Of a stretch of DNA of 18,644 nt, positions 64-17,629 are shown in pieces (positions within the stretch are counted from its first letter, which is position 1; every line of letters starts with the position of its first letter). Both the position numbers and the translations under genes were made by a program. Source of the DNA: Gemmatimonadota bacterium (GTDB taxonomy: Bacteria; 4572-55; J002); assembly GCA_003697105.1 (NCBI GenBank), contig RFFQ01000029.1, positions 1 through 18,644 of the forward strand. Reading direction: 5' to 3'. The notes under the pieces are model-generated. The model did not search any database. It saw only the letters and a program-made list of their open reading frames with translations, and was not told the DNA's origin.

Positions 64-123
64 AAACGATTCCCACAGGCGATGAAACCCCCTGTTTCCA
101 TCACGTTTTTGTGGAGGTTATCC

Positions 124-2787
124 ATGTTTAAAAAATGGGTTTTAGTTGTGCTGTTCATGTTCTTTCCTGCGCTGGGGAACGCCGTGGAAGAAATGTATAT
201 TCAGTTTGAGATCGAGTCGGTGAGTGAGTTAGAAGCACTTACCCGTGTGATTGCCATCGATCAGGTTATCGATGGCAGTACGGTCATCGCCAATGTGATT
301 CCTTCGGAACTGGTGCATTTACGCGCACTGGGCTATACGGATTATACCATCCTACCTAACTACGGCAAGCCCGTCATCCCGCCTCGCATGTCCGCTACTT
401 TGCGAGAATGGGATAGCTACCCGACCTACGATGCCTATCTGGAGATGATGCAACAATTTGCCATCGATTATCCGGAACTGTGCCTGCTGGATACCCTCGG
501 GTACAGCACCCAAGGACGCCAGCTTTTGGCAGTCAAAATCACTGATAATATTCACACGGAAGAAGATGAACCAGAATTTTTTTATACCAGTACCATGCAT
601 GGGGATGAAACCACCGGGTATGTCCTCATGTTGCGTTTTATTGATTATTTGCTCACCCATTACGGTGAAGATGAGCGGGTGACGCATCTGGTTGATAATG
701 TGGAAATTTGGATCAATCCACTTGCTAACCCAGATGGTGCCTATTATGCGGGTAATGATAACATTTTTGGAGCGATCCGGCGGAATGCAAACGGCGTTGA
801 CCTCAACCGCAACTTTCCCGATCCCGATGATGGACCCCACCCCGACGGGCGCGAATGGCAACCCGAAAACCTAGCCATGATGGCGTTTGCCGCCCGTCAG
901 AACATCACCATGAGTGCTAATTTTCATGGTGGAGCAGAAGTTGTCAACTATCCGTGGGATACCTATTCGTGGGAATCTGCCGATGATGACTGGTGGCAAT
1001 TGGTTTGCCATGAATATGCCGATGCGGCACAAGAAAACAGCCCGCCCGGTTATATGGATGGTTTCGATGACGGTATTGTCCGCGGCTACGTCTGGTATCC
1101 GATTGCCGGTGGACGGCAGGATTATATGATCTACTACCACGGTGGGCGAGAATGCACCATCGAACTTTCCAACATCAAGTTGCTGCCGGAAAATCAGTTA
1201 GACGCCCACTGGGAGTATAATCAGGAATCCTTTCTGCTCTATCTGGAACAGGTTCTGTACGGCATCCGCGGCATCGTCACGAATCCGGCGGGTGAACCGG
1301 TAGCCGCCACGGTGACGGTTCTAAATCATGATGAGGATAGCGTTTGGGTCTATACAGACCCCGATGTCGGTGATTATCACCGGGTGATCCATGCCGGGAC
1401 CTATGATGTTCAATTTACCGCGGAGGGGTATCTCCCCTATCTTGTTGAAGATGTTGAAATTAACGATTACGAAACGGTACGGATTGATGTGGTGATGCAA
1501 CCGATCCCTCGCTATACCCTTCGTGGTACGGTGGTGGATGGGGAAACCGACCAACCACTTGCCGGCGTGGAGGTTTTTATCCTAGAACTTCCAGAGAATC
1601 AGACGATCACCGGTGAAAATGGAGTGTTCCAATTTGACGATCTGATGTCCGGTGATTATACGCTGCGGCTCTATGCAGAACAGTACGCCTCTGTTACCCA
1701 ACAGGTAACCCTAGAGGAGGATATCGACCTCGATATCGCGCTCTACCCCAGTTTTACCGAGAGTTTTGAGGGGGGTGAATTTCCGCCAGAATGGGAGTTT
1801 CATGGCAATGCTCCGTGGGAGATCGACAACATCGCGGCAGATGGGTCTTTCTCTGCACGTTCCGGGCGGATTTCCAGCTACCAGCGCTCCCAAATGTGGA
1901 TCACGCTCGATATAAATCACCCCGGTGAAATTGTATTTCAGTATAAAACTTCTACTGAGATCGGGGATAAACTTGAATTTTATATTGATAATGTCCGGCA
2001 AGGCTCCTGGTCTGGTGAAATCGACTGGACAGAAGCCCGGTTTCCTGTTTCCACGGGGTCGCATATCTTCAAGTGGTCTTACCAAAAGAACGCCAGCGGT
2101 AGTGGCGGGGAAGATGCCGTCTGGGTGGATGTGATCATCTTTCCGCCCACACCCACCGGCGGAGATGCGCCGGAGATCACCCTTTCACCCGCTGAATTTG
2201 ATCTGACGTTGCCCCCGAACTTCGTCGGGCAAGGGCATCTGGATGTGTTCAATACGGGTAGCCGTGACTTACAGGTTCGGGCGGAATTACCGGAAGTGGA
2301 TTGGCTCAACCTAGACCCGGTATCGGGTACGGTTCGCCCGGACGAAATGCTCCGGCTCCATCTCAATTTTAATTTGATCGGGATCGATTTGGGTACGGAG
2401 TTGAACACCACGATTACCCTCTACAGTAATGATCCGGACACACCGGAAATCCATGTTCCGGTGAACGTCCTCGTGGATGAATTCACGGCGGCGACCTATC
2501 CGGCGGCGATCCATCTACCGGCAACATCCGAATTGGGGCGAAATTATCCCAACCCGTTTAACCCTCAAACGGTAATCCCGTATGCGATTGCCCATGCTGG
2601 GCAGGTCACCCTCATGATTTATGATCTGCACGGGCATTTGGTTCAGGTACTGGTGGATGCCGTCCAACCTGCCGGATACTACACCGTGATGTGGGATGCC
2701 TCCGCCAGGGTGTCCGGGCTGTATATTTGCCGGTTGGAAGTCGATAACCTGCCGGTCGATACAACCTCATTACTCTTGTTAAAATAA
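124..2787 (+). CDS. Secreted M14-family zinc carboxypeptidase with C-terminal sorting domain
   Basis: Exported metallocarboxypeptidase of 887 residues, expected to remove C-terminal residues from peptides outside the cytoplasm. A signal peptide is clear: MFKKW, a hydrophobic core, and likely cleavage after GNA (residue 20). The catalytic domain covers about residues 100-380. It has the zinc ligands H159 and E162 (motif HGDE) and H268 (FHGGAEVVNYPWD), the substrate-binding DLNRNFP (226-232), and the general base E347 (CTIELS). This pattern fits the M14 N/E-like carboxypeptidase branch. Two transthyretin-like CarboxypepD_reg repeats follow (about 380-465 and 470-550). Next come a beta-rich MAM/concanavalin-like segment, a BACON/Hydin-like Ig domain, and a C-terminal FlgD-type Ig sorting domain starting at YPNPFNP (Y808), which suggests surface delivery by a type IX-like route. 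I chose ATG 124 because GGAGG lies six bases upstream and it places the signal peptide at the N terminus. An in-frame ATG at 82 would add 14 residues ahead of it. Confidence 0.93.
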   Translation: MFKKWVLVVLFMFFPALGNAVEEMYIQFEIESVSELEALTRVIAIDQVIDGSTVIANVIPSELVHLRALGYTDYTILPNYGKPVIPPRMSATLREWDSYPTYDAYLEMMQQFAIDYPELCLLDTLGYSTQGRQLLAVKITDNIHTEEDEPEFFYTSTMHGDETTGYVLMLRFIDYLLTHYGEDERVTHLVDNVEIWINPLANPDGAYYAGNDNIFGAIRRNANGVDLNRNFPDPDDGPHPDGREWQPENLAMMAFAARQNITMSANFHGGAEVVNYPWDTYSWESADDDWWQLVCHEYADAAQENSPPGYMDGFDDGIVRGYVWYPIAGGRQDYMIYYHGGRECTIELSNIKLLPENQLDAHWEYNQESFLLYLEQVLYGIRGIVTNPAGEPVAATVTVLNHDEDSVWVYTDPDVGDYHRVIHAGTYDVQFTAEGYLPYLVEDVEINDYETVRIDVVMQPIPRYTLRGTVVDGETDQPLAGVEVFILELPENQTITGENGVFQFDDLMSGDYTLRLYAEQYASVTQQVTLEEDIDLDIALYPSFTESFEGGEFPPEWEFHGNAPWEIDNIAADGSFSARSGRISSYQRSQMWITLDINHPGEIVFQYKTSTEIGDKLEFYIDNVRQGSWSGEIDWTEARFPVSTGSHIFKWSYQKNASGSGGEDAVWVDVIIFPPTPTGGDAPEITLSPAEFDLTLPPNFVGQGHLDVFNTGSRDLQVRAELPEVDWLNLDPVSGTVRPDEMLRLHLNFNLIGIDLGTELNTTITLYSNDPDTPEIHVPVNVLVDEFTAATYPAAIHLPATSELGRNYPNPFNPQTVIPYAIAHAGQVTLMIYDLHGHLVQVLVDAVQPAGYYTVMWDASARVSGLYICRLEVDNLPVDTTSLLLLK

Positions 2788-5136: not shown

Positions 5137-7590
5137 ATGATCGAGAACGTCAAACAGAAACAGCAGGAACTGGCTACCTTGACGGATTCAGTTGAAAAAG
5201 TGGATTTGCTGAAAGAGATATCCGAATATTTTCAGCGGAAAGACCCACTTCAAGCGCTGCAATATGCGACCCAAGCCGCCGAAATTGCCGGACGCATTGG
5301 CTACGACTCGGGTTATGCCGAGGCCATCTTTCTGCAAGGGAAGCATCAAAACAATTTGGGTCAATATGTCGAATCCATGAAGCTTCTGAAACAGGCACTT
5401 TCTCTGTTTGAAACCCTGAATGATCGCACGGGGTATATTAAAGCCCTAAATTTAAAGGGAATGGTCAATTACCGGCTAGGTGATTTTCAGGATGCACTGG
5501 TTGACTTGACGGAAGTCCTCAAATCGGAAGAGGACATCGATGATAAATCCATACGGGCTAGTGCGCTGAACACGATGGGAAATATTTATTCCGATCTCGA
5601 TGATTATGATAATGCCCTCAAATATTATCAGGAAGGGTTAGAAAAATTTCGGGAAACCGGCGATCGAAATGGTGAGGCAAGTATCCTCAATAACTTGGGG
5701 ATTCTTTACTCTGATTTGGGGGCGTATGAAAAATCGCTTTCACACTATTTGGCGTGTCTAAAAATTCGCGAGGAACAAGAAGACCCCCGTGGAATTGCAA
5801 TTACACTCTTAAATATTGGTGATTTGTATATGAAGCAAGGTGAATTTGGGAAAGCCCTTGCCTGCCACCATAACGCGCTAGATATAAACACCGGTATCGG
5901 GAATAAAGCAGTGGAAGCCCATATCAATGGGTCAATTGGTAAACTGTGGGTCAAGCAGGAGAAATGGGAAAAAGCGATTCCGTACCTTGAAAAAGCGACG
6001 GAATTAGCGGCGGAAGTGGAAGACCGGAATCTGCGTGTACAAACGCTGAAAAACCTTGCCTCTGCTCACGAAGCTCTCGGAAACATGTCCGATGCCTTGA
6101 GTTACTTTAAAATGTGCTATCAGATTGAGAAAAAAGCCTTTGATGAGGAGTATAAAGAACGAATCGATTATCTGAAAAACCGCTACGAAGCGGAAAAAAA
6201 AGAAAAAGAAGCCGAAATTTACCGGCTCAAAAATGTGGAACTGGCACGGCTATACGATCACATCCGCCTCATCAGTGAAATCGGACAAAAAATCACCGCC
6301 TCTTTATCATTGGAGACGATTCTGACCACCGTTTATGAGAACATCAATCAGTTAATGAAGGCAGATGGCTTCGGAATTGATCTGTATCATCCAGAAACCG
6401 AAGAGATCGAGTACAAATTCTTCATTGAACGAGGGGAACGCTTAAAGCCTCTCACCGGTTCGGTACATGATGAGGGAAGTTTCTCCGCTTGGGCAATTCG
6501 GAATCGCAAAGAGGTTTTTCTGAACGATGCGACCCAAGAATACATGGCCTATATACCGAAGTTGAAAGCGGTGGGAGCCGACGAAGGAGGTGAAACCCTT
6601 TCCGCACTGTATGTTCCGCTGATTGTGGAAGACCGCGTCGTGGGGGTCGTGACGGTACAAAGTTTTGATCCGGGCGCGTACACCCCAGCGGATTTGGATA
6701 TGTTGCGGGCGCTAGGCAACTATATTGCCGTCGCGTTGGATAATGCCCGGGCTTATGCCGAACTCAACAAAGCGATAGACGATTTGAAAACCGCGGAAGT
6801 CCAGATGCTCCAATCGGAACGGATGGCATCCTTAGGGGAACTTTCCAGCATGATCGGGCATGAATTTAACAATATCCTGAACGGGATCAGTTCTCCGGTG
6901 GAACTGATTATGAGCCAACCTCCCCTTGATGAAGATGTGATCTGGCACTGTTGGGAATCGGATCAAGAAGGGCATGAACTACAAGCATATCTGGAAGAAC
7001 GCCGTCAGGTATGGGAAAAAATCAGAGAAGCCTCTAAGATGATTAAATTAGCCTCGGATCGTGCTTTCGAGACCATCCGCGACCTGCAAGCCATTGCCGG
7101 CGGTAAAAGCCGTAAATTAGGCTTAACCGATATTGTGGAAACCCTGGAAGAGACCATCCGCCTCCAAAGACATAAATTGCACAAGATTGAGATCGTGAAA
7201 GAGATTGAAGCGGAACAATTTCGGGTGATGATTACCAGCGGGGAAATGGGACAAATCTTTATGAATTTTCTGGTAAATGCCGCTCATGCGCTGGAAGGTC
7301 AGGAAGACGCGCGGATTACCATCCGGATGCGCCAGCAAGATGGCGGTGTGGAGATTCAATTCGCCGATAATGGCAAAGGTATGTCGGAGGAAGTTCAAAA
7401 ACGCATTTTTGAACCCTTTTTTACAACCAAAGGCGAAAAAGGTACCGGTATCGGTCTGACCATGGTCAAGCGGATTGTAGATCAGCGGGGCGGAAAAATC
7501 ACCGTGGAAAGCCAAGAAGGTGAGGGCACCACCTTTACCATCTGGTTCCCCCAAGAGATTCAAGAATTGAGCAAACATCATGGCAACTAA
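5137..7590 (+). CDS. HK1: soluble TPR-GAF sensor histidine kinase
   Basis: Predicted cytosolic sensor kinase of 817 residues, with no signal peptide or membrane segment. About eight 40-residue TPRs of the kinesin-light-chain/LGN style fill residues 15-345 (for example SALNTMGNIYSDLDDYDNAL). A charged coil follows (KKEKEAEIYRLKNVELARL). A GAF domain then occupies about 378-545 and may bind a small ligand or be purely structural. The phosphoacceptor is H575 in IGHEFNN. The family's insert follows (W603, C605, W606, then ESDQEG). The GHKL domain has N710 and N714 of the N box, DNGKG (D744), FEPFFTTK, GTGIGLT and GTTF, all expected for ATP binding. It is the first gene of a tandem family and the only one with GAF. 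ATG 5137 has AAAGGA five bases upstream. The stop overlaps the HK2 start by 11 bases. No receiver partner is seen; the stimulus is unknown. Confidence 0.92.
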   Translation: MIENVKQKQQELATLTDSVEKVDLLKEISEYFQRKDPLQALQYATQAAEIAGRIGYDSGYAEAIFLQGKHQNNLGQYVESMKLLKQALSLFETLNDRTGYIKALNLKGMVNYRLGDFQDALVDLTEVLKSEEDIDDKSIRASALNTMGNIYSDLDDYDNALKYYQEGLEKFRETGDRNGEASILNNLGILYSDLGAYEKSLSHYLACLKIREEQEDPRGIAITLLNIGDLYMKQGEFGKALACHHNALDINTGIGNKAVEAHINGSIGKLWVKQEKWEKAIPYLEKATELAAEVEDRNLRVQTLKNLASAHEALGNMSDALSYFKMCYQIEKKAFDEEYKERIDYLKNRYEAEKKEKEAEIYRLKNVELARLYDHIRLISEIGQKITASLSLETILTTVYENINQLMKADGFGIDLYHPETEEIEYKFFIERGERLKPLTGSVHDEGSFSAWAIRNRKEVFLNDATQEYMAYIPKLKAVGADEGGETLSALYVPLIVEDRVVGVVTVQSFDPGAYTPADLDMLRALGNYIAVALDNARAYAELNKAIDDLKTAEVQMLQSERMASLGELSSMIGHEFNNILNGISSPVELIMSQPPLDEDVIWHCWESDQEGHELQAYLEERRQVWEKIREASKMIKLASDRAFETIRDLQAIAGGKSRKLGLTDIVETLEETIRLQRHKLHKIEIVKEIEAEQFRVMITSGEMGQIFMNFLVNAAHALEGQEDARITIRMRQQDGGVEIQFADNGKGMSEEVQKRIFEPFFTTKGEKGTGIGLTMVKRIVDQRGGKITVESQEGEGTTFTIWFPQEIQELSKHHGN

Positions 7591-9556
7591 CATCGAAACC
7601 CTGCGGGCACAAATCGAACAAGAAACAGAACCACGGGCAAAAATCGATCTGCAAAATCGCTTGGTGTTTGAACTCAGCTATTCCAACCCCGAAGAAGCCC
7701 AAACGTTGGTGAACGCCGTTGCCCAAAAAGCGGAACAGTTAGGGTATGCCGTAGGTCTGGCAAATAGCTACCGCAATATGGGAATTTTGGATATTTATCA
7801 GTCGGAATATCACCACGCGTTAGCGCATTTTTTGCGGGCAATTGAACTATACAAAGATGCCGGCTGTAAAGAAGGGTTGGCAACCACCTACAACAACATG
7901 GGCGTGATCTACTACTACTTGATTGACTATGAAAACACGCTAACTTACTACAAAAAAAGCCTTCAGCTCAGTGAAGAAATCAGTGACTATGAGACCCAAG
8001 TCTCGTTACTGAGCAATATTGGCGCGGTTTACGCCCAAATGGAGAACACCCGAGAGGCAAAGCATTACTTTGAACGGTCTTTAGCACTGGCAGAAGCACA
8101 TCAAGATTATGAAGGGCAGGTCAACGCGCTGCATAATTTAGCCCATGTTACCGAAGGCGAAAAACTCCATCAGGCGGCTCTAAATTACGCGCTGAAAGCC
8201 AAAAGCATTGTCGAAAACCACTACCCCAGCCAGCGACACTTGATGACCTGTTGGAGCGGAATCGGATTGGCATATCGGGGCTTAGAACGCTTTTCCGAGG
8301 CAATTGATTTTTACCAGCGCGCGTTGGAACTCAGTCGTAAACTCCATGATAAACGGGAACAAGTGATCGGTCTGCGTGAGATCGGTGAATGTTATATTGC
8401 CCTTCATCAAATGGAAAATGCATTAGATTACCTAAAACAAGCCGAACACCTCGCCGAGGCCATGGATTCTCAGGAGTTGGAAATTAATGTGTATGAATCG
8501 CTCTTTCGTCTATACGAACAGCAGAATGATATTGCCGCGGCATTAGCTTATCACAAAAAGTATCATCAGGCAGAGATCACGGTTTTAAGAGAAAAATATG
8601 ATCAAAACACACAGTTGCTTCAAGTGCGATTCCAAGTGGAACAAAAAGAACGTGAAGCCGAACTCTACCGGCGGGAAAACGAAGAACTTGAACGCCTCAA
8701 CGCGGAATTGGAAGCCACCAACCAGAAATTGGTCGAAACCCAAGCCCAATTGATAGAGTCACAAGCCAAACGTATTCAAGCAGAAAAACGAGCAACCCTC
8801 GGCGAACTTGCCGGAATGGTGACGCATGAAATCAATAACGCTCTCAGTGGTATTCGGAGTTCGTTAGAGCAAATTTATCACACGCCTCGTTTAGATGAAG
8901 ACCGGATTTGGCACTGCTGGGAGAACGACCAAGAAGGTACGGAGTTGCAAGCCTATCTGGCGAAACGCCGCATGGAAGAAGACCACATTATTGCCGCCAC
9001 CGAACTGGCACAGCGTGCTGAGGTACGGGCAGAACAGGTCATTAAAGACCTAAAAAGCCTTGTGGGAGATGAAAGTCAGGAACTGGGAACGATCCATCTT
9101 GTGGAGATATTCCGCAAAGCCGTACGATTACAATGGGAACGACTGGAGCGCATCAACATTATTGAGGATATTGAGTCTGAAGATTTAACCCTGACTGCCA
9201 CCAGTGGCGAAATAGGTCAACTTTTTTTGATTTTGCTGAGTAATGCCAGTGATGCCCTGAAAGACCACTCCGAACCGGAAATTCATGTGAAAATGCAAAC
9301 CCAAAATGGGGGAATTCAGGTTGATTTCAGCGATAATGGCTGTGGAATACCGCCATCGATTCAGGCGGAGATATTCCACCCGTTTTTTACCACCAAAGGG
9401 GAGTCCAGTTCTGGCGTGGGGCTTTCCACCTTTAAACGAATCATTGACGCCTACAACGGAACCATTCACCTCAAGAGTGACATTGGAAAAGGTACAACCT
9501 TCTCCTTTTGGTTACCCGAGGACGCCAAAGGAAAAACGGCTGTATTTAAATCGTAA
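7580..9556 (+). CDS. HK2: soluble TPR sensor histidine kinase
   Basis: Predicted cytosolic kinase of 658 residues. TPRs cover about residues 15-345 (TTYNNMGVIYYYLIDYENTL is one unit). A long coiled coil follows (EREAELYRRENEELERLNAEL, then QLIESQAKRIQAEK). The phosphoacceptor is H416 in THEINNALSG. The shared hairpin insert begins with W444 (IWHCWENDQEG). The GHKL domain has N555, DNGCG (D585), FHPFFTTK, SGVGLS and GTTF. The first asparagine of the N box is replaced by Ile (I551), a change shared with HK3, so nucleotide binding may differ from HK1. HK2 and HK3 look like a sister pair (shared VEIF/AVRLQW, LTATSGE and SGVGLST). The start lies inside the end of HK1 (11-base overlap) with little Shine-Dalgarno of its own, so translation is probably coupled. 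No membrane or DNA-binding part is visible. Confidence 0.92.
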   Translation: MATNIETLRAQIEQETEPRAKIDLQNRLVFELSYSNPEEAQTLVNAVAQKAEQLGYAVGLANSYRNMGILDIYQSEYHHALAHFLRAIELYKDAGCKEGLATTYNNMGVIYYYLIDYENTLTYYKKSLQLSEEISDYETQVSLLSNIGAVYAQMENTREAKHYFERSLALAEAHQDYEGQVNALHNLAHVTEGEKLHQAALNYALKAKSIVENHYPSQRHLMTCWSGIGLAYRGLERFSEAIDFYQRALELSRKLHDKREQVIGLREIGECYIALHQMENALDYLKQAEHLAEAMDSQELEINVYESLFRLYEQQNDIAAALAYHKKYHQAEITVLREKYDQNTQLLQVRFQVEQKEREAELYRRENEELERLNAELEATNQKLVETQAQLIESQAKRIQAEKRATLGELAGMVTHEINNALSGIRSSLEQIYHTPRLDEDRIWHCWENDQEGTELQAYLAKRRMEEDHIIAATELAQRAEVRAEQVIKDLKSLVGDESQELGTIHLVEIFRKAVRLQWERLERINIIEDIESEDLTLTATSGEIGQLFLILLSNASDALKDHSEPEIHVKMQTQNGGIQVDFSDNGCGIPPSIQAEIFHPFFTTKGESSSGVGLSTFKRIIDAYNGTIHLKSDIGKGTTFSFWLPEDAKGKTAVFKS

Positions 9557-9571
9557 ATCTAAGGTAAAACA

Positions 9572-11554
9572 ATGACAGAAAAAATAAAACAACTTCAAGA
9601 TCAACTCGAACATGCCTCCAGTGTACATGAAAAAGTTGATACCTTAACCGAGTTGTCAAAAGAGTATACTCAAAATCAACCGCACGAGGCACTATCCGCG
9701 GCAAATCAAGCGTTAGAACTTGCCAAAACCATTGATTATAAAAGTGGTATTGCCAAAGCATTAGCCCGATTGTGCCGCTGTTATGAACGGTTTTCCAATT
9801 ATGAAAAAGCCCTCTCATTAGGTCTGGAATCCCTAGAGTTATTTGAATCTATCGACGATGACAACGGCAAAGCCGGCATTTTAAGCCGGTTGGCCTGGAT
9901 TTATCAAACTTTAGGCGATTATGCCACCGCCCTTGATCACGCCATGACCAGTTTGGAATTATACCGTAAGATCAATGATCCCCAAGGAATTTTTAGTGCG
10001 TTCAACACGTTGGGTTCCGTCAGTGGTAATGCAGGTGACCCCGATAAAGCATTGGAATATTACGAAGAAGCGTTACAAATCAGTCGGGAATCCAATTTAC
10101 GAGCCAGTGAAGCCGTCGCCCTCGTCAATATCGGCACAGTTTATTGCCGGACATTTGACGACCCGGAAGAAACCAAAACCAAAAATGAACTGGCGATTCA
10201 ATATTTTGAAAAAAGCGGTGTAATCTTTGAGGAAGAAAAGAATCTGTTCAATAAAAATATCACGATAATGAACACCGGCGCTGCCTATCTCAACTTGAAA
10301 AAATATCCTGAGGCGCTGGAATGCTTTTACCACAGCTTGGAAACCGCAGAATCACTCGAACAAAAGTCCATCCAAGCCCATTGCCTGAGCAATATTGCGG
10401 GCGTGTACTCCCAGCAAGAAAAATATGATGAGGCGTGTACCTATTACTTCCGTGCTCTCGCCTTAGCTGAAGATACCAAAGAGAAACCCCGTTTGGCGGC
10501 GATTCATCAAAATTTAGCCGAAGTGTTTGAAAAGATGGAGGAGTTCACCAAAGCCTTGGAACACTTCAAAAAATACCATGAACTAAATAGCGAAGTTTTT
10601 AATGAAAATTCAGACCGGAAATTGAAGAACTTACAAGTCATGCATCAAGTGGATCAGTCCAAGCGGGAAGCCGATCTTTTACGAGAAAAAAACGAAGAAC
10701 TCGCCAAATTAAATCAGGAATTAGAGCAAACCAATGAACAATTGGTCAAAACACAAATTCAACTGATGCAGGCACAAGCAAAACGGCTGGAAAATGAACG
10801 AATGGCGGCGTTAGGGGGGATTACCAATATGGTCGCCCACGAGATGAATAATGCTCTGAACGCTTTAAAAATGCCCCTCGAACAACTGAGTAACTTGCCG
10901 AAATTAGATAGCGAGCGCATTTGGCACTATTGGGAAAATGACGATGATGGTATCGAACTTCAGGCATACCTCGCCCAGCGAGAACGAGAATTGAAAACCG
11001 CTGCTGACTGTGTCGAATGTGCGAAAAATGCGGAACTTCGGATGGAACAGGTTATTTGCGGCTTACGACATTTAGCCGGCGAAAAAAGTCAAGATTTACG
11101 CTCAATTAACATCGTTGAAATTTTTCAGGAAGCTGTCCGCTTGCAATGGCAATATCTGGAAAAGCTGGCACTCATCAAAGAGATAGAACAACCGGAAATG
11201 TATCTCACCGCTACCAGCGGTGAATTGGGGCAAATCTTCCTCATTTTAATCAGCAATGCTTGTGATGCCCTGAAAAATAAGCCTCATCCCACCATCACGG
11301 TTAAAATGCACTATAAAAATGACGGTATTGAAATTCTATTTCAGGATAACGGTAGCGGAATACCCTCTGATATCCAACAACGAATATTTGACCCCTTTTT
11401 TACCACCAAAGGTGAACAAAACTCCGGGGTGGGGCTTTCCACCCTGAAGCGAATTATTACCAAATACAAAGGGCATCTTACCGTCGCCAGCGAAGAAAAT
11501 GAAGGTACAACGTTCCGAATTTGGCTTCCCCTGCATACTAAAGCGAGCCGCTAA
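9572..11554 (+). CDS. HK3: soluble TPR sensor histidine kinase, divergent insert
   Basis: Predicted cytosolic kinase of 660 residues with the same plan as its neighbours: TPRs to about residue 350, a coiled coil (KREADLLREKNEELAKLNQEL), a phosphoacceptor domain with H423 (AHEMNNALNA), and a GHKL domain with N562, DNGSG (D592), FDPFFTTK, SGVGLS and GTTF. One TPR unit near residues 185-225 is irregular and longer (DDPEETKTKNELAIQYFEKS). This copy departs most from the hairpin-insert consensus: the second position after the first Trp is Tyr, not Cys (W451, HYWENDDDG). The first N-box asparagine is Ile (I558), as in HK2. ATG 9572 is preceded by AAGG at a good distance, 15 bases after the HK2 stop. 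Its stop shares one base with the HK4 start (TAATG). The ligand and output are not evident. Confidence 0.92.
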   Translation: MTEKIKQLQDQLEHASSVHEKVDTLTELSKEYTQNQPHEALSAANQALELAKTIDYKSGIAKALARLCRCYERFSNYEKALSLGLESLELFESIDDDNGKAGILSRLAWIYQTLGDYATALDHAMTSLELYRKINDPQGIFSAFNTLGSVSGNAGDPDKALEYYEEALQISRESNLRASEAVALVNIGTVYCRTFDDPEETKTKNELAIQYFEKSGVIFEEEKNLFNKNITIMNTGAAYLNLKKYPEALECFYHSLETAESLEQKSIQAHCLSNIAGVYSQQEKYDEACTYYFRALALAEDTKEKPRLAAIHQNLAEVFEKMEEFTKALEHFKKYHELNSEVFNENSDRKLKNLQVMHQVDQSKREADLLREKNEELAKLNQELEQTNEQLVKTQIQLMQAQAKRLENERMAALGGITNMVAHEMNNALNALKMPLEQLSNLPKLDSERIWHYWENDDDGIELQAYLAQRERELKTAADCVECAKNAELRMEQVICGLRHLAGEKSQDLRSINIVEIFQEAVRLQWQYLEKLALIKEIEQPEMYLTATSGELGQIFLILISNACDALKNKPHPTITVKMHYKNDGIEILFQDNGSGIPSDIQQRIFDPFFTTKGEQNSGVGLSTLKRIITKYKGHLTVASEENEGTTFRIWLPLHTKASR

Positions 11555-13527
11555 TGACCGATCCCATCCAACATCTTGAACAGAAATTGGAAACCGTTAC
11601 CCGTGAGGCAGAACGGGTCGATCTGCTAAATGACCTCACCAAAGCGTGGGCAACCCGTTCCATCGACAAAGCGGCGATGTACGCCCAAAAAGCCCTCGAA
11701 CTCGCCGAACAGATCAATTACCCCTTTGGATTCGCCGTTGCCTTATACCGGGGTGGCGCCGTCTCTTTTTATCAGGGATACGCGACAAAAACAATTCAAC
11801 AATGCCAACGCGCTTGTGAGATGTTTAAAGAATTGGGCGAAGCCGAGTTGATGATCGAATCGTTGCAGTACACCGGTAACGGTTACATGGAATTGGGTGA
11901 CCATGAAAAAGCGTTAGATTATCTGATCCAAGCGCTACGCGCCGCTGAAGAACTCGGGGATAAATCCATAATCGCTAAATGCTTGAATACGTTGGGTAAT
12001 TTCTACAACGAAATTCGGCAACGAGAGCGTGGCATGAAGTATCATCAGCAGGCATTACAACTTTATCAGGAGATCGGTGATCACGATGGAATTGCGGTGG
12101 CTCAAACCAATCTGGGTATTGGATACACCCAATGTGAGCAATACGACCAAGCGGTAGAAGCTTTTACCACTGCCTTGCATTATTACGAGGAAATGGGGCA
12201 AACCTTACGGGCGGCGCAGGTGATGAATAACCTAGGGTTCTTATATAAACGACAGGAACAATGGGACACCGCCTTGGAGTATTTCAACCGCTCATTGGAC
12301 ATCAAAACCCAACACCATGATCAGCGGGGGATGATTCATTCCTTGATGAATAAGAGTGAGATTCTCAATAACCTAGGTCAGCCGGAAACCGCACTGGAAA
12401 ATCAGTTGACCGCCTTACGCCTAGCGGAAGAACTCAGCCTAAAATCAATGATCGCTAACATTAACTATAACATTGCCCATACCTACACCATGTTGGGGGA
12501 TCACAAAACCGCCTACCAATCTCTTCTGAAATATGTAGAATTAAATCGGGAGTTAACCTCCGAAGATATGCGAAAGAAACTTGCCGAAATGGAAACACAG
12601 AATGAACTGGAGCGAAAAGAAAGAGAAACTGAATTATACCGCCTGAAAAATGTCGAATTAGCGCGACTGAATGAAGAATTGGAGAAAACAAACCAATCCT
12701 TGATCGAAACTCAGCTTAAATTGGTGGAATCTCAAGCGCAACGGATTCAAGCAGAGAAATTAGCAACCCTTGGTGAACTGGCGGGGGTCATCGCTCATGA
12801 AGTCAACAATGCCTTGAGTGGCATCATGGTGCCCAATGAAATCATTTTGAACACGCCGGAGTTGGATCGGGACAAAATCTGGCAATGTTGGGAATCAGAT
12901 GAAGATGGCAGTTTGCTCGAAGCCTATCTGGACCAGCGGGAAAAGGAATTCCGCCGGGTGAAATCGGCCGCAGATATGATTCGCACCGCCGCTAAACGGG
13001 CGGCACATGTGGTGGATGACCTGCAAAATCTCATTGGGGGACGAAGCCGGCAGTTGGGTCCGGTGAACCTGTGCCAAGTGTTCCGGAGTGCCTGCCGTCT
13101 CCAAAAACAGCGCCTCGAACGGATCACCATTATTGAAGAATTTGAGTGTGACCCTTTAGAAATCGTTATCACCAGCGGGGAAGTGGGGCAGATTTTTATG
13201 CATTTGCTGGTTAATGCCAGTGATGCCCTGCAAGAGCAAAAAAGCGCAATCATCACGGTCCGAATGTACCGCCAAGCGAACGGAGTCCAGATTGAATGTG
13301 CCGATAATGGTCGTGGCATACCACCAGACCACCTAGAACACCTTTTTGATCCGTTCTTCTCCACCAAAACCCGGGACGGTTCCGGCTTAGGATTGACCGC
13401 CGTTAAGCGTATTATTGAAGAATACGGTGGATCCATTGATGTTCAAAGTGAAATCGGAGTAGGCACAACCTTTTCGGTGTGGTTGCCAACGGATCACAAA
13501 GGAAAAGGTCGCGTATTTCATTTATAA
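11554..13527 (+). CDS. HK4: soluble TPR sensor histidine kinase
   Basis: Predicted cytosolic kinase of 657 residues. The N terminus (LETVT, then ERVDLLNDL) closely matches HK5. TPRs run to about residue 345 (for example NNLGFLYKRQEQWDTALEYF). The linker ETELYRLKNVELARL is nearly identical to the one before the GAF domain of HK1, but here it runs on into a coil (NEELEKTNQSLIETQ). The phosphoacceptor is H415 (AHEVNNALSG). The shared insert starts at W443 (IWQCWESDEDG). The GHKL domain has N554, DNGRG (D584), FDPFFSTK, SGLGLT and GTTF. The first N-box asparagine is His (H550), which is unusual. The last residues (KGKGRVF) resemble the tail of HK2 (KGKTAVF). The start codon shares its A with the HK3 stop, so the two are likely translationally coupled. 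Confidence 0.92.
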   Translation: MTDPIQHLEQKLETVTREAERVDLLNDLTKAWATRSIDKAAMYAQKALELAEQINYPFGFAVALYRGGAVSFYQGYATKTIQQCQRACEMFKELGEAELMIESLQYTGNGYMELGDHEKALDYLIQALRAAEELGDKSIIAKCLNTLGNFYNEIRQRERGMKYHQQALQLYQEIGDHDGIAVAQTNLGIGYTQCEQYDQAVEAFTTALHYYEEMGQTLRAAQVMNNLGFLYKRQEQWDTALEYFNRSLDIKTQHHDQRGMIHSLMNKSEILNNLGQPETALENQLTALRLAEELSLKSMIANINYNIAHTYTMLGDHKTAYQSLLKYVELNRELTSEDMRKKLAEMETQNELERKERETELYRLKNVELARLNEELEKTNQSLIETQLKLVESQAQRIQAEKLATLGELAGVIAHEVNNALSGIMVPNEIILNTPELDRDKIWQCWESDEDGSLLEAYLDQREKEFRRVKSAADMIRTAAKRAAHVVDDLQNLIGGRSRQLGPVNLCQVFRSACRLQKQRLERITIIEEFECDPLEIVITSGEVGQIFMHLLVNASDALQEQKSAIITVRMYRQANGVQIECADNGRGIPPDHLEHLFDPFFSTKTRDGSGLGLTAVKRIIEEYGGSIDVQSEIGVGTTFSVWLPTDHKGKGRVFHL

Positions 13528-13548
13528 CACGGCAGAGAGATGACCACC

Positions 13549-15528
13549 ATGTCTGAGTTGGCAAAAAAACTGAAAACCCAATTGGAGACCGTCACCGACC
13601 CCGCCACAAGGGTCGATCTTCTCAACCAGTTGGCGTGGCATACATGGCGCCAAGATGCCAATCAAGCACTCCGCTATAGTGAGCAGGCGTTTGCTCTGGC
13701 ACACGAGATCAATTATCCCAAAGGCATTATCCAAAGTTTGATCCGTAAAGGACTAAGTTGCCTGACATTTGCCCGCTATGACGAGGCACTATCTCACTTC
13801 CAAACCGCATTGCGCATAATGGATGACACCGGGGAAACCGGCGAGAAGGGATTTATTCATAACCGAATCGGTGTGGTCTATTACAATTTGGGAGATTATA
13901 ATAAAGCCTTGCAAGAACAATTAGTCTGCTTAGAAATCAGTCAAGAAACTCAGGATAAACGGCTGGAAAGCCGGGCTTTAAACAGCATCGGTATCATTAG
14001 TAATGCGTTGGAACGCTTTGAAGAAGCACTCGAATATTACCAACGAAGTATGACCCTCGCCGAAGAGATTAACGACTTGCAATTACAGGCGTTTGCGCTT
14101 AATAACATGGGCACCGTTTATGACTCCCTAAAACATTATGATAAAGCCCTCGAAAATTATCGAAAAAGCATTGAAATCAATGAAAAGTTAGGAAATGATA
14201 CCGCCCGCGCAATTGGGATCAGCAACATGGGAGATGCATATCGTCTAATGAAAGATTACCCCCAAGCCTTAAAATATTATCAAGAAGCACTCGCCATCGA
14301 CCGGCAACGGGGAACAAAAAGCAGTGAAGCACACGTGTTGCACTCCTTAGGCGAACTGTATCTGGAACAAAAGGATACAGAACAGGCATTGCACTACCTC
14401 ACAGCGGCGTTGGAACTCAGCCAGCAGATTAAAAATAAGCATTTGGTATTCGAGGTGCATTTCTCGCTCTCCAAATTATATCGCACGGTAGAAGATTTTG
14501 AGCAAGCGTTAACCCATTTTGAGAAATATCATCAGATTAAAGAAGAAGTCCTCAATGAAGACTCCGCCCAAAAGGTGAAAAATTTCCAAATCCGGCTCGA
14601 ACTGGAGCGGAAAGAAAAAGAAGCCGAAATTTACCGCAAAAAAAATGAAGAATTGGCTCGTTTGAACGAAGAACTCGAAAAAACGAACCAACAACTGCTG
14701 GAAGCCCAAATTCAGACGGTTACTGCCCAAGCAAAACAGATGGAAGCGGAACGGCTGGCAACATTGGGACGGGTTGCCAGTATGATCGGGCATGATATGA
14801 ACAATGCCCTCAGCGGGGTCATTTCCCCTTTAGAATATATCATCTTGGCAGAACCCCTCGATCAGGGTGAAATTTGGGACTGTTGGGAAACCGATGAAGA
14901 TGGTAGTCGCCTAAAAGCCTATCTGGAAGAATGGGAAAAAACATGGAACCGGATACAGGACGCCGCCCAAATGATCCAAATCGGCGCAAAACGAGCGCAC
15001 ATGGTGATTAACGACCTGCAAAGTGCTGTCGGTGGCAAAAGCCAGAAACTGGGCTATATCAATCTACCGGATGTCTTTCGGGAAAGTGTCCGGCTGCAGA
15101 AAAAACATTTGCTGAACATCAATGTTATCGAAAAATTTGAGAGCGAGGAGATGCGGGTTGTGACCACCAGTGGTGCCATGAGCCAAATATTTATGAACCT
15201 CCTGATCAATGCCTGCCATGCGCTAGAAGGACGGGAAAACCCGACGATCATTGTCGAATTGAAAACCAAAAATGAGGGGGTCGAAATCCGTATTTCCGAT
15301 AATGGAAAGGGTATTCCCGAAGACATCATGCCCCATATTTTTAAGCCCTTCTTCTCCACCAAAGGTGAAGATGGCTCCGGGTTGGGGTTAGCCGCCATCA
15401 AACAAATTTTGAAAGGGTTTAACGGTACCATCGAGGTCGAAAGTGAACTGGGTAAAGGCACTACTTTTATCGTTTGGATACCCAAAGAGGGTAAAGAAGT
15501 TCCGCTAATGAAACCACGCTGGGTCTAA
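13549..15528 (+). CDS. HK5: soluble TPR sensor histidine kinase
   Basis: Predicted cytosolic kinase of 659 residues from ATG 13549. An in-frame ATG at 13540 would add three residues. I prefer 13549 because it puts 11 residues before the LETVT motif, as in HK2, HK3 and HK4, and leaves GAGAG about nine bases upstream. TPRs fill about residues 15-345 (ALNNMGTVYDSLKHYDKAL is one). The coil is KEKEAEIYRKKNEELARLNEEL. The phosphoacceptor is H415 in IGHDMNNALSG; Asp follows His instead of Glu, a known conservative variant in kinases. The insert starts at W443 (IWDCWETDEDG). The GHKL domain has N550 and N554, DNGKG (D584), FKPFFSTK, SGLGLA and GTTF. It ends the tightly packed part of the array, and 124 non-coding bases separate it from HK6. 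No clear terminator is seen after it. Confidence 0.92.
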   Translation: MSELAKKLKTQLETVTDPATRVDLLNQLAWHTWRQDANQALRYSEQAFALAHEINYPKGIIQSLIRKGLSCLTFARYDEALSHFQTALRIMDDTGETGEKGFIHNRIGVVYYNLGDYNKALQEQLVCLEISQETQDKRLESRALNSIGIISNALERFEEALEYYQRSMTLAEEINDLQLQAFALNNMGTVYDSLKHYDKALENYRKSIEINEKLGNDTARAIGISNMGDAYRLMKDYPQALKYYQEALAIDRQRGTKSSEAHVLHSLGELYLEQKDTEQALHYLTAALELSQQIKNKHLVFEVHFSLSKLYRTVEDFEQALTHFEKYHQIKEEVLNEDSAQKVKNFQIRLELERKEKEAEIYRKKNEELARLNEELEKTNQQLLEAQIQTVTAQAKQMEAERLATLGRVASMIGHDMNNALSGVISPLEYIILAEPLDQGEIWDCWETDEDGSRLKAYLEEWEKTWNRIQDAAQMIQIGAKRAHMVINDLQSAVGGKSQKLGYINLPDVFRESVRLQKKHLLNINVIEKFESEEMRVVTTSGAMSQIFMNLLINACHALEGRENPTIIVELKTKNEGVEIRISDNGKGIPEDIMPHIFKPFFSTKGEDGSGLGLAAIKQILKGFNGTIEVESELGKGTTFIVWIPKEGKEVPLMKPRWV

Positions 15529-15612: not shown

Positions 15613-15652
15613 TCAGGCTAAATAAAACGGTCCCGATTTTGTGGGGAAGGAA

Positions 15653-17629
15653 ATGCCGGATATTGCAGAATTAGAAAGACAACTTGAAATCTGTACCAGT
15701 GAACTTGAGCGAATTAACCTACGCAACCAACTTGCTTGGGAACTCAAAAAAAAAGATACGGATCACGCCTTTGCCCTCGCCACCGAGGCGTATAAGCAGG
15801 CAACCCAATTGAATTACTCCAAAGGGGTTGCCTACGCCCAGCGTGCCCGAGGGGCTTGCCTGATGTTCCAAGCAAAATATGATGAAGCCCTCCTGAATCT
15901 CTCTCAAGCCGCTCAAACATTCAACGCCCTTACCGATCCATTTGGTGAAGCCTCCGTTTACAACGTGATGGGGGTCATTTATAAACGGATGGGTCATTAC
16001 AACCGTGCTTTGGAGTACTATCTGTTGGGACTAGATTATGCCGAACAGGCACAGGATTCGTTATTAATATCGAGCATTCTTAGCAATGTTGCCGGTATCT
16101 ATAGCGCCCTTGGGCAAAACCAACAAGCCCTTGATTATTATCAGAAAAATCTAGAGATCTACCGGCAAGCCGGGGATCGGGACCGGGAAGCCTTAGTATG
16201 GGGCAACATCGCCAGTGTATATGATGCTCTTGGCGACCACGAAAAGGCACTCCAAGCCAGTTTTGATTGCCTCAAACTGAGCCAACAGGTTCAGAATCAA
16301 TGGCGTATCTGCAATACCCTGTGTAATATTGGGGCGATCTATTACCACTTGAAAACGTATGATGAGGCGCTGGAGTATTTCCAGCAAAGCCTGGTACTGG
16401 CTAGGGAAATAAATAACATTCAGTTGCAAGCTCATGCCATGTTGGCGCTGGGTACGGTATATCGTGAAAAACAGATATATGATAAAGGATTGGATTACCT
16501 GCACCAAGGGTTAGCACTGGCGGAACAGGTGCAAGAAAAGGAATCCATTAAAACCGCCTATAAAGCGATCTCTGAAATTTATGAAGAGACGGGAGATTTC
16601 CAAAACGCTCTGGACTATCACAAAAAATTTCAGGAGATCGATCATGAAACCCTCACTATCAAGGCGGATGAGAATTTGCGGAAGATGCAAACCCAGTTTC
16701 AAGTTGATCTCAAGGAAAAAGAAACCGAAATACTTCGCCAAAAAAACGAGGAACTGGAGCATCTCAATGCCGAACTGGAAACCATGAATGAAAATTTAGT
16801 GGAAACCCAATTGAAACTCGTCCAATCTCAGGCACGGCGCATCGAAAGTGAAAAACTCGCCAAGCTAGGCGAACTCGCCAGCATGATGGCACACGAAATA
16901 AATAATGCTCTCAGCGGGATTCTGGGTCCGGCAGAGCAAATCCAGAAAACCCCCCCACTGGATGAGGAGAGGATCTGGAAATGCTGGGAAACCGATCAGG
17001 AAGGTACTCAATTAAGTGCCTATTTGCACCAATGGAACTCCACGTGGCGCCGCATTCAAGATGCGGCAAATCTCATCACTACTGCCGGAAAACGTGCACA
17101 ACAGGCCATCTTGGATTTACAGAATTTTGTGGGGGATAAAAGCCATAAGTTGGGCGCTATCGTGATCAAAGATGTCCTTCAAGGGTCAATCCGGCTACAA
17201 GCCCAGCGCTTGGAAAAATTACGTCTTATTCAGGATTTTGAAGACGATGACCTCCGGATCACGGCTACAACCGGTGAACTGAGCCAAATTTTTACAAACC
17301 TGATCAGTAATGCAACGGACGCCTTGCAGAATGCGACAGACCCCACCATTACCATTCGGGTAAGCACCCACAATGGGGGCATCGAAATGCAGTTTAGCGA
17401 TAACGGGATCGGCATCGCTCCGGAAGATATGCGCCGTATTTTTGAACCCATGTTCACGACGAAAGGGGAGAAAAGCTCCGGGTTGGGGCTTTCCACAGTC
17501 AAACGGATTGTAGAGGCGTACAACGGGACGATCCACGTTCAAAGCGAACTTGGAAGCGGCACAACGTTCACCCTCTGGCTACCGCTGGATGGTAAAAAAA
17601 GCCCTCATGCTCCTGCGGGTGCGGTATGA
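15653..17629 (+). CDS. HK6: soluble TPR sensor histidine kinase
   Basis: Predicted cytosolic kinase of 658 residues. TPRs cover about residues 15-345 (SNVAGIYSALGQNQQALDYY is one). The coil is KEKETEILRQKNEELEHLNAEL. The phosphoacceptor is H414 (AHEINNALSG). The insert starts at W442 (IWKCWETDQEG). The GHKL domain has both N-box asparagines (N549, N553), DNGIG (D583), FEPMFTTK, SGLGLS and GTTF. I chose ATG 15653 because it aligns with the start of the other copies and GGGGA lies about five bases upstream. A GTG at 15641 would add four residues. The copy sits behind its own promoter candidate. Its stop overlaps the start of the fluoride channel gene in ATGA, so the kinase and channel are probably translated from one message. 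Whether HK6 senses anything linked to fluoride is unknown. Confidence 0.91.
   Translation: MPDIAELERQLEICTSELERINLRNQLAWELKKKDTDHAFALATEAYKQATQLNYSKGVAYAQRARGACLMFQAKYDEALLNLSQAAQTFNALTDPFGEASVYNVMGVIYKRMGHYNRALEYYLLGLDYAEQAQDSLLISSILSNVAGIYSALGQNQQALDYYQKNLEIYRQAGDRDREALVWGNIASVYDALGDHEKALQASFDCLKLSQQVQNQWRICNTLCNIGAIYYHLKTYDEALEYFQQSLVLAREINNIQLQAHAMLALGTVYREKQIYDKGLDYLHQGLALAEQVQEKESIKTAYKAISEIYEETGDFQNALDYHKKFQEIDHETLTIKADENLRKMQTQFQVDLKEKETEILRQKNEELEHLNAELETMNENLVETQLKLVQSQARRIESEKLAKLGELASMMAHEINNALSGILGPAEQIQKTPPLDEERIWKCWETDQEGTQLSAYLHQWNSTWRRIQDAANLITTAGKRAQQAILDLQNFVGDKSHKLGAIVIKDVLQGSIRLQAQRLEKLRLIQDFEDDDLRITATTGELSQIFTNLISNATDALQNATDPTITIRVSTHNGGIEMQFSDNGIGIAPEDMRRIFEPMFTTKGEKSSGLGLSTVKRIVEAYNGTIHVQSELGSGTTFTLWLPLDGKKSPHAPAGAV

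Follow-up and report, generated by a model that had tools for sequence, protein, structure and literature searches.

The window analysed here, a stretch of 18,644 nucleotides that makes up contig C92 in full and belongs to a draft genome of 4.18 Mb, carries six histidine kinase genes (HK1 to HK6) in a tandem array on the forward strand, flanked by a RelA/SpoT gene and by crcB/DUF190 genes. The six genes, between positions 5137 and 17629, overlap or are closely spaced and have no adjoining response regulator, and they therefore constitute an orphan kinase array. All of the encoded proteins contain TPR repeats and a C-terminal HATPase_c domain. In HK1 (5137..7590) the TPR repeats are followed by a GAF domain, a DHp with the hairpin-tip insert that is the subject of this study, and HATPase_c, whereas HK2 (7580..9556), HK3 (9572..11554), HK4 (11554..13527), HK5 (13540..15528) and HK6 (15641..17629) have a predicted coiled coil between the TPR repeats and the tip-bearing DHp. 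An arrangement with a TPR array ahead of the kinase core is also seen in TPR-histidine kinases such as Porphyromonas FimS, to which there is a weak NCBIfam match that lies far below the cut-off for that family (128.6 bits against 600). Elsewhere in the window (82-2787) is an M14 zinc carboxypeptidase with CarboxypepD_reg domains and, at its C-terminus, a weak Por_Secre_tail (NYPNPFNPQT), a type IX-like sorting signal.

The HATPase_c profile (PF02518) matches all six kinases with E values of 1e-21 to 1e-27, and none of them matches HisKA (PF00512) over its full length at the gathering score. Partial HisKA matches were obtained for five of the six (13-23 bits against a cut-off of 26.9, over profile positions 2-35 of 66) and none was listed for HK5; the Pfam domain covers helix 1 only and ends at the insert. 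The H-box, the CA domain and the model fold identify these proteins as HisKA-type kinases and, as far as the models indicate, their DHp appears to function as a HisKA domain whose hairpin has been interrupted.

Downstream of the phosphoacceptor His, every one of the window kinases carries the motif LDxxxIWx(C/Y)WExDxxGxxLxAYL. In HK1 the phosphoacceptor is His575 (6859..6861, forward strand), which is assigned from the sequence of its GHEFNN H-box and the partial HisKA match. The insert at the hairpin tip of this protein, QPPLDEDVIWHCWESDQEGHELQAYL, comprises residues 594-619 (His+19 to His+44; 6916..6993, forward strand), and its core, VIWHCWESDQEG (His+26 to His+37; 6937..6972, forward strand), corresponds to a short helix and an acidic turn in the predicted model. 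The equivalent inserts, on the same strand, lie at 8882..8959 in HK2 (His+19 to His+44, with W444), 10895..10972 in HK3 (W451), 12853..12930 in HK4 (W443), 14848..14925 in HK5 (W446, counted from the first ATG) and 16949..17026 in HK6 (W446, counted from the GTG start). The initial annotation had placed the first Trp at exactly His+28 in all six proteins, and our ungapped alignment bears this out and adds a second Trp at His+31 that is equally constant; only its residue numbers for HK5 and HK6 (W443 and W442) need revision, the sole difference being the start codon chosen. It was also right that the Cys at His+30 is kept in five of the six, HK3 having Tyr instead. The invariance that it claimed for the remaining motif positions holds within the window, where L, D, I, W, W, E, D, G, L, A, Y and L are all fixed, but has to be relaxed across the wider family described below, in which L, D, A and Y are only near-invariant. 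The conservation of the tip in the window kinases is real, non-random and lineage-restricted.

The same segment is present in 13 kinases of this genome. A DHp profile search gave 13 full-length matches (2e-33 or better), the next being partial matches to helix 1 at 2e-6, and a profile of the insert only (35 columns) recovered the identical 13 proteins from their own genome, as expected of a positive control. Over the DHp-CA region the members score at least 223 bits, compared with 110 bits for the next kinase of the genome. In a catalytic-domain tree from which the insert was left out, a single clade (support 100/97) unites the 12 members with parsable boxes, and kinases with a long hairpin but without the motif fall at several other places. 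The expectation of a discrete family in which the insert is always present is thus borne out: all 13 members carry the motif, the 12 that were placed form a clade, and the other kinases examined lack the tip. The link that follows helix 2, L-V/I-G-x-x-S-x-x-L-G, in which the Gly and Ser are invariant, likewise has a family-specific look.

The members share only 43-50% identity over DHp-CA and have very different sensor parts. The front ends of the seven located outside the window are quite unlike those of the window kinases and comprise membrane sensors, one TPR kinase and one receiver fusion together with, as judged by eye, a long protein with propeller-like repeats and a very long one whose start resembles a kinase and which also has a GAF-like part. 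The tip thus marks a discrete family, one that has expanded through duplication and the exchange of sensors. Two of the members (L093:7164-8696 and L096:16052-17557) have a membrane sensor with haem-type motifs (CxxCH or Cx4CH), and that of the former matches Mcp40H-20_sensor. At L092:6721-10111, on contig C187, a family gene overlaps a gene for a REC-DUF3369-SpoIIE phosphatase by 8 bases, which suggests an output through partner switching. On contig C194 a PAS-STAS gene lies immediately upstream of the family TPR kinase (L097:534-3391), after which the contig ends in a further, truncated TPR gene; this region is probably a second kinase array.

Conservation within the family is concentrated in the insert. 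Eight positions are invariant in all 13 members (I27, W28, W31, E32, D34, G37, L40 and L44, numbered from the His) and an acidic residue (Glu or Asp) occupies position 36 throughout, while L22 and Y43 are kept in 12 members, D23 and Cys30 are kept in 11, and the interleaved positions +29, +33, +38, +39 and +41 vary. Of the 23 insert columns 8 are invariant, whereas the DHp helices on either side have a single such column among 45 (Fisher p = 0.0005, which is indicative only because neither columns nor paralogs are independent). Mean pairwise identity is 0.63 over the insert and 0.74 over its core; the corresponding values for helix 1 past the H-box and for the remainder of helix 2 are 0.34 and 0.32. 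At the codon level, third positions are 0.45 identical and second positions 0.80; this variation at third positions indicates that selection acts on the protein, and it rules out a DNA-level repeat or recent copying.

AF2 models of HK1 and HK6, built from the six window sequences only, agree on the layout of this region. The mean pLDDT is 73 for HK1 and 79 for HK6, with moderate values over the tip itself (about 63-71 and 70-83, respectively). In both models helix 1 runs to His+18, a short helix occupies His+24 to His+30, an acidic turn follows at +31 to +37, and helix 2 extends over 42 residues from His+38 to His+79. The short helix has a single conserved hydrophobic face (27, 28 and 31). The a/d heptad of helix 2 is unbroken from H+40 through H+79 (places +40, 44, 47, 51, 54, 58, 61, 65, 68, 72 and 75), such that the extension joins the standard part without a break and hence belongs to the bundle core, although not every heptad place in the extension is hydrophobic, position +47 being Arg in five members. 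The models therefore favour the earlier proposal that the tip of the hairpin is rebuilt, with a short helix, an acidic turn and a lengthened helix 2 as its predicted parts. Comparison of the DHp-CA model with HK853 and ZraS gave Z scores of about 21 with rmsd values of 5-9 Å over about 200-218 residues, but this result is dominated by the catalytic domain and is uninformative about the fold of the tip.

The tip family shares the helix 1 H-box, the N-box/G-box and the DHp-CA fold with HisKA (PF00512) kinases of the HExNN type such as CckA (5idj), ZraS (9jfj) and HK853 (2c2a), and differs from them in having about 26 extra hairpin residues with the Trp/acidic motif; PDB profile matches to kinases stop at or just past helix 1. 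The size of the insert follows from the distance between the His and the N-box, which is 138-141 in the family members measured and 110-119 in the ordinary kinases of our sample. The general statement that the HisKA hairpin has a short turn at this height is correct for those ordinary kinases but too broad, since extended hairpins (133-149) occur both in other phyla and within the same class. In particular, long-hairpin kinases from four genomes of another phylum (G043, G188, G320 and G386; loci L084-L091 and L099) carry, after a HEINN H-box, an insert about as long as that of the tip family, and the hhalign alignment passes through it with gaps totalling four residues. These proteins have neither the Trp nor WExDxxG, and in the catalytic-domain tree they are not sisters of the tip family. 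Seven sequences from this four-genome phylum (L084 and L088 in G320; L085, L090 and L091 in G188; L086 and L089 in G043) form an extended-hairpin family with an invariant Cys near His+31.

The phylum of the source organism is represented in our material by two genomes, and the tip was not found in the second, which is of the same class and 93% complete; its nearest kinases have either an ordinary hairpin (His-to-N-box 113) or a long one (133 and 144) that lacks the motif. Neither was it found in 769 sampled genomes, including 385 others around the source genome, with at most 12 first-look candidates from each, and 383 relatives of G029, in which the insert profile gave no match. A scan of 84,980 genomes with [CY]WE[SNT]D[QED][ED]G or an H-box pattern, which misses divergent versions and may leave out records very near the source genome, yielded 22 related loci with the tip absent wherever they were read, and seven pattern matches in viral contigs were all unrelated. 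The idea that the segment might correspond to a described HisKA subfamily loop also found no backing: its 35 residues have no match in Pfam at E values up to 10 (HMMER being weak on so short a segment) or among PDB sequences, and a literature search of partial coverage did not turn up an account of this kind of tip. What is new here is the WxxWExDxxG tip, extended hairpins being a recurring variation.

We lean, on balance, towards an interpretation in which the tip is a lineage-specific aromatic/acidic structural cap, which would make the DHp bundle longer and determine both the geometry of the hairpin and the way in which dimers pair. This reading is preferred because the residues kept in every member suit either a core (I27, W28, W31, L40 and L44) or a turn and cap (E32, D34 and G37), while those interleaved with them vary. 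Helix 1 would end about five turns past the His, and after a PP-LD break a short amphipathic helix (EExIWxC) would pack its I27, W28 and W31 face onto helix 2. The latter would be longer by about three turns and contribute L40, Y43 and L44, often with W47/W51, as contact residues, and the turn WExDxxG would both close the hairpin and cap helix 2. In the dimer such a tip may add aromatic layers to the four-helix bundle and so influence handedness and pairing. A fixed hairpin geometry, together with dimer compatibility within the family, would then allow sensor parts to be swapped on a single kinase core. According to Ashenberg 2013 (cited in PMC5956149), the DHp inter-helix loop decides whether autophosphorylation takes place in cis or in trans, and a fixed tip would thereby set one mode for the whole family. 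Two observations sit less comfortably with a structural cap: three conserved acids (32, 34 and 36) are not obviously needed for a purely structural role, and other long-hairpin kinases manage without a Trp/acidic motif.

The phosphoacceptor His is kept in all six window kinases and in 12 of the 13 family members. The exception, L021 (L098:12806-14110, contig C131), reads VASELSNS where the others have HExNN, with Ser in place of the His; its tip is intact, its ATP boxes appear intact by eye, and it carries an N-terminal receiver. Retention of the tip in a protein without the phosphoacceptor fits a role in folding, scaffolding or pairing, and not one in phosphotransfer. L021 resembles other His-less histidine kinases, including DivL, which has Tyr at the phosphoacceptor position, in combining a replaced His with intact-looking ATP-binding boxes; it is unlike DivL in being a receiver-bearing member of the tip family. 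Paralogous kinases are able to heterodimerise, and inactive forms can work through partner kinases (PMC9491836), which suggests that L021 might heterodimerise with other kinases of the family. The reading frame of L021 opens where that of a 1709-residue Reg_prop-HisKA-HATPase-REC protein ends, and the latter protein has a further kinase core that is extended in a different manner.

A possible but less probable explanation is that one family-wide partner, be it a response regulator, a phosphotransfer protein or an adaptor, docks on the tip, such that all 13 kinases feed a single hub. The tip is indeed the most uniform part of the DHp among paralogs with different sensors, there is likewise little variation at H+8 (Gly) and H+12 (Pro), two positions close to the surface normally used for docking, and the window kinases have no adjoining response regulator, as in many-to-one phosphorelays. 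A docking surface should, however, conserve the interleaved and probably exposed tip positions, which vary; the neighbours of family members also differ (REC-SpoIIE phosphatase on C187, REC-GerE on C134 and a fused REC on C131), and the member with Ser for His retains the tip. Response regulators dock at the stretch just after the His, and the suggestion that the tip selects different phosphotransfer partners is not supported, in view of the greater uniformity of the tip (0.63) compared with that stretch (0.34). A specificity element that discriminates between paralogs is disfavoured in the same way, the tip being uniform across members.

It is improbable that the extended hairpin is ancestral baggage, inherited from a founder kinase and conserved as a folding unit with no special role. 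Its restriction to one clade in one genome and the scatter of long hairpins across kinases would fit such an origin, but paralogs that are 43-50% identical over DHp-CA retain 74% identity in the tip core, above that of the flanking helices, and this needs continuing constraint. Rather harder to credit is the idea that the tip is cation-sensing or cation-stabilised, with its acidic turn, E-x-D-x-[ED]-G, holding a divalent cation as a DxDxDG loop does. E32, D34 and G37 are invariant, position 36 is always acidic and the turn lies between two predicted helices; the EF-hand pattern D-x-[DNS]-x-[DNS]-G with a bidentate Glu at position 12 nevertheless does not fit, since loop position 1 is Glu rather than Asp and position 12 (His+43), where Glu is expected, is Tyr in 12 of 13 members, and moreover in the models the Gly is immediately followed by helix 2, and the segment is unmatched in Pfam and PDB. 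The redox or Cys-metal switch that had been proposed from the conserved Cys and Trp is very improbable: the Cys at His+30 is present in 11 of 13 members, and the two that lack it have Tyr or Ala there with no replacement Cys in the tip.

A broader proposal, which we consider unlikely, is that the tip is a shared recognition or cation-binding module joining all 13 kinases, the His-less receiver-bearing one included, into a single network. If this were true, the members would form homo- and heterodimers or share one common partner, with many sensors wired to one hub through the hairpin tip and not through the usual surface just after the His. To our knowledge, natural and strongly conserved elements at the hairpin tip of histidine kinases have been little studied. 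With 13 paralogs that combine one fixed tip with many sensors, and with one His-less member among them, this family offers a natural system in which to study control of dimer pairing, or a shared output, by the hairpin tip.
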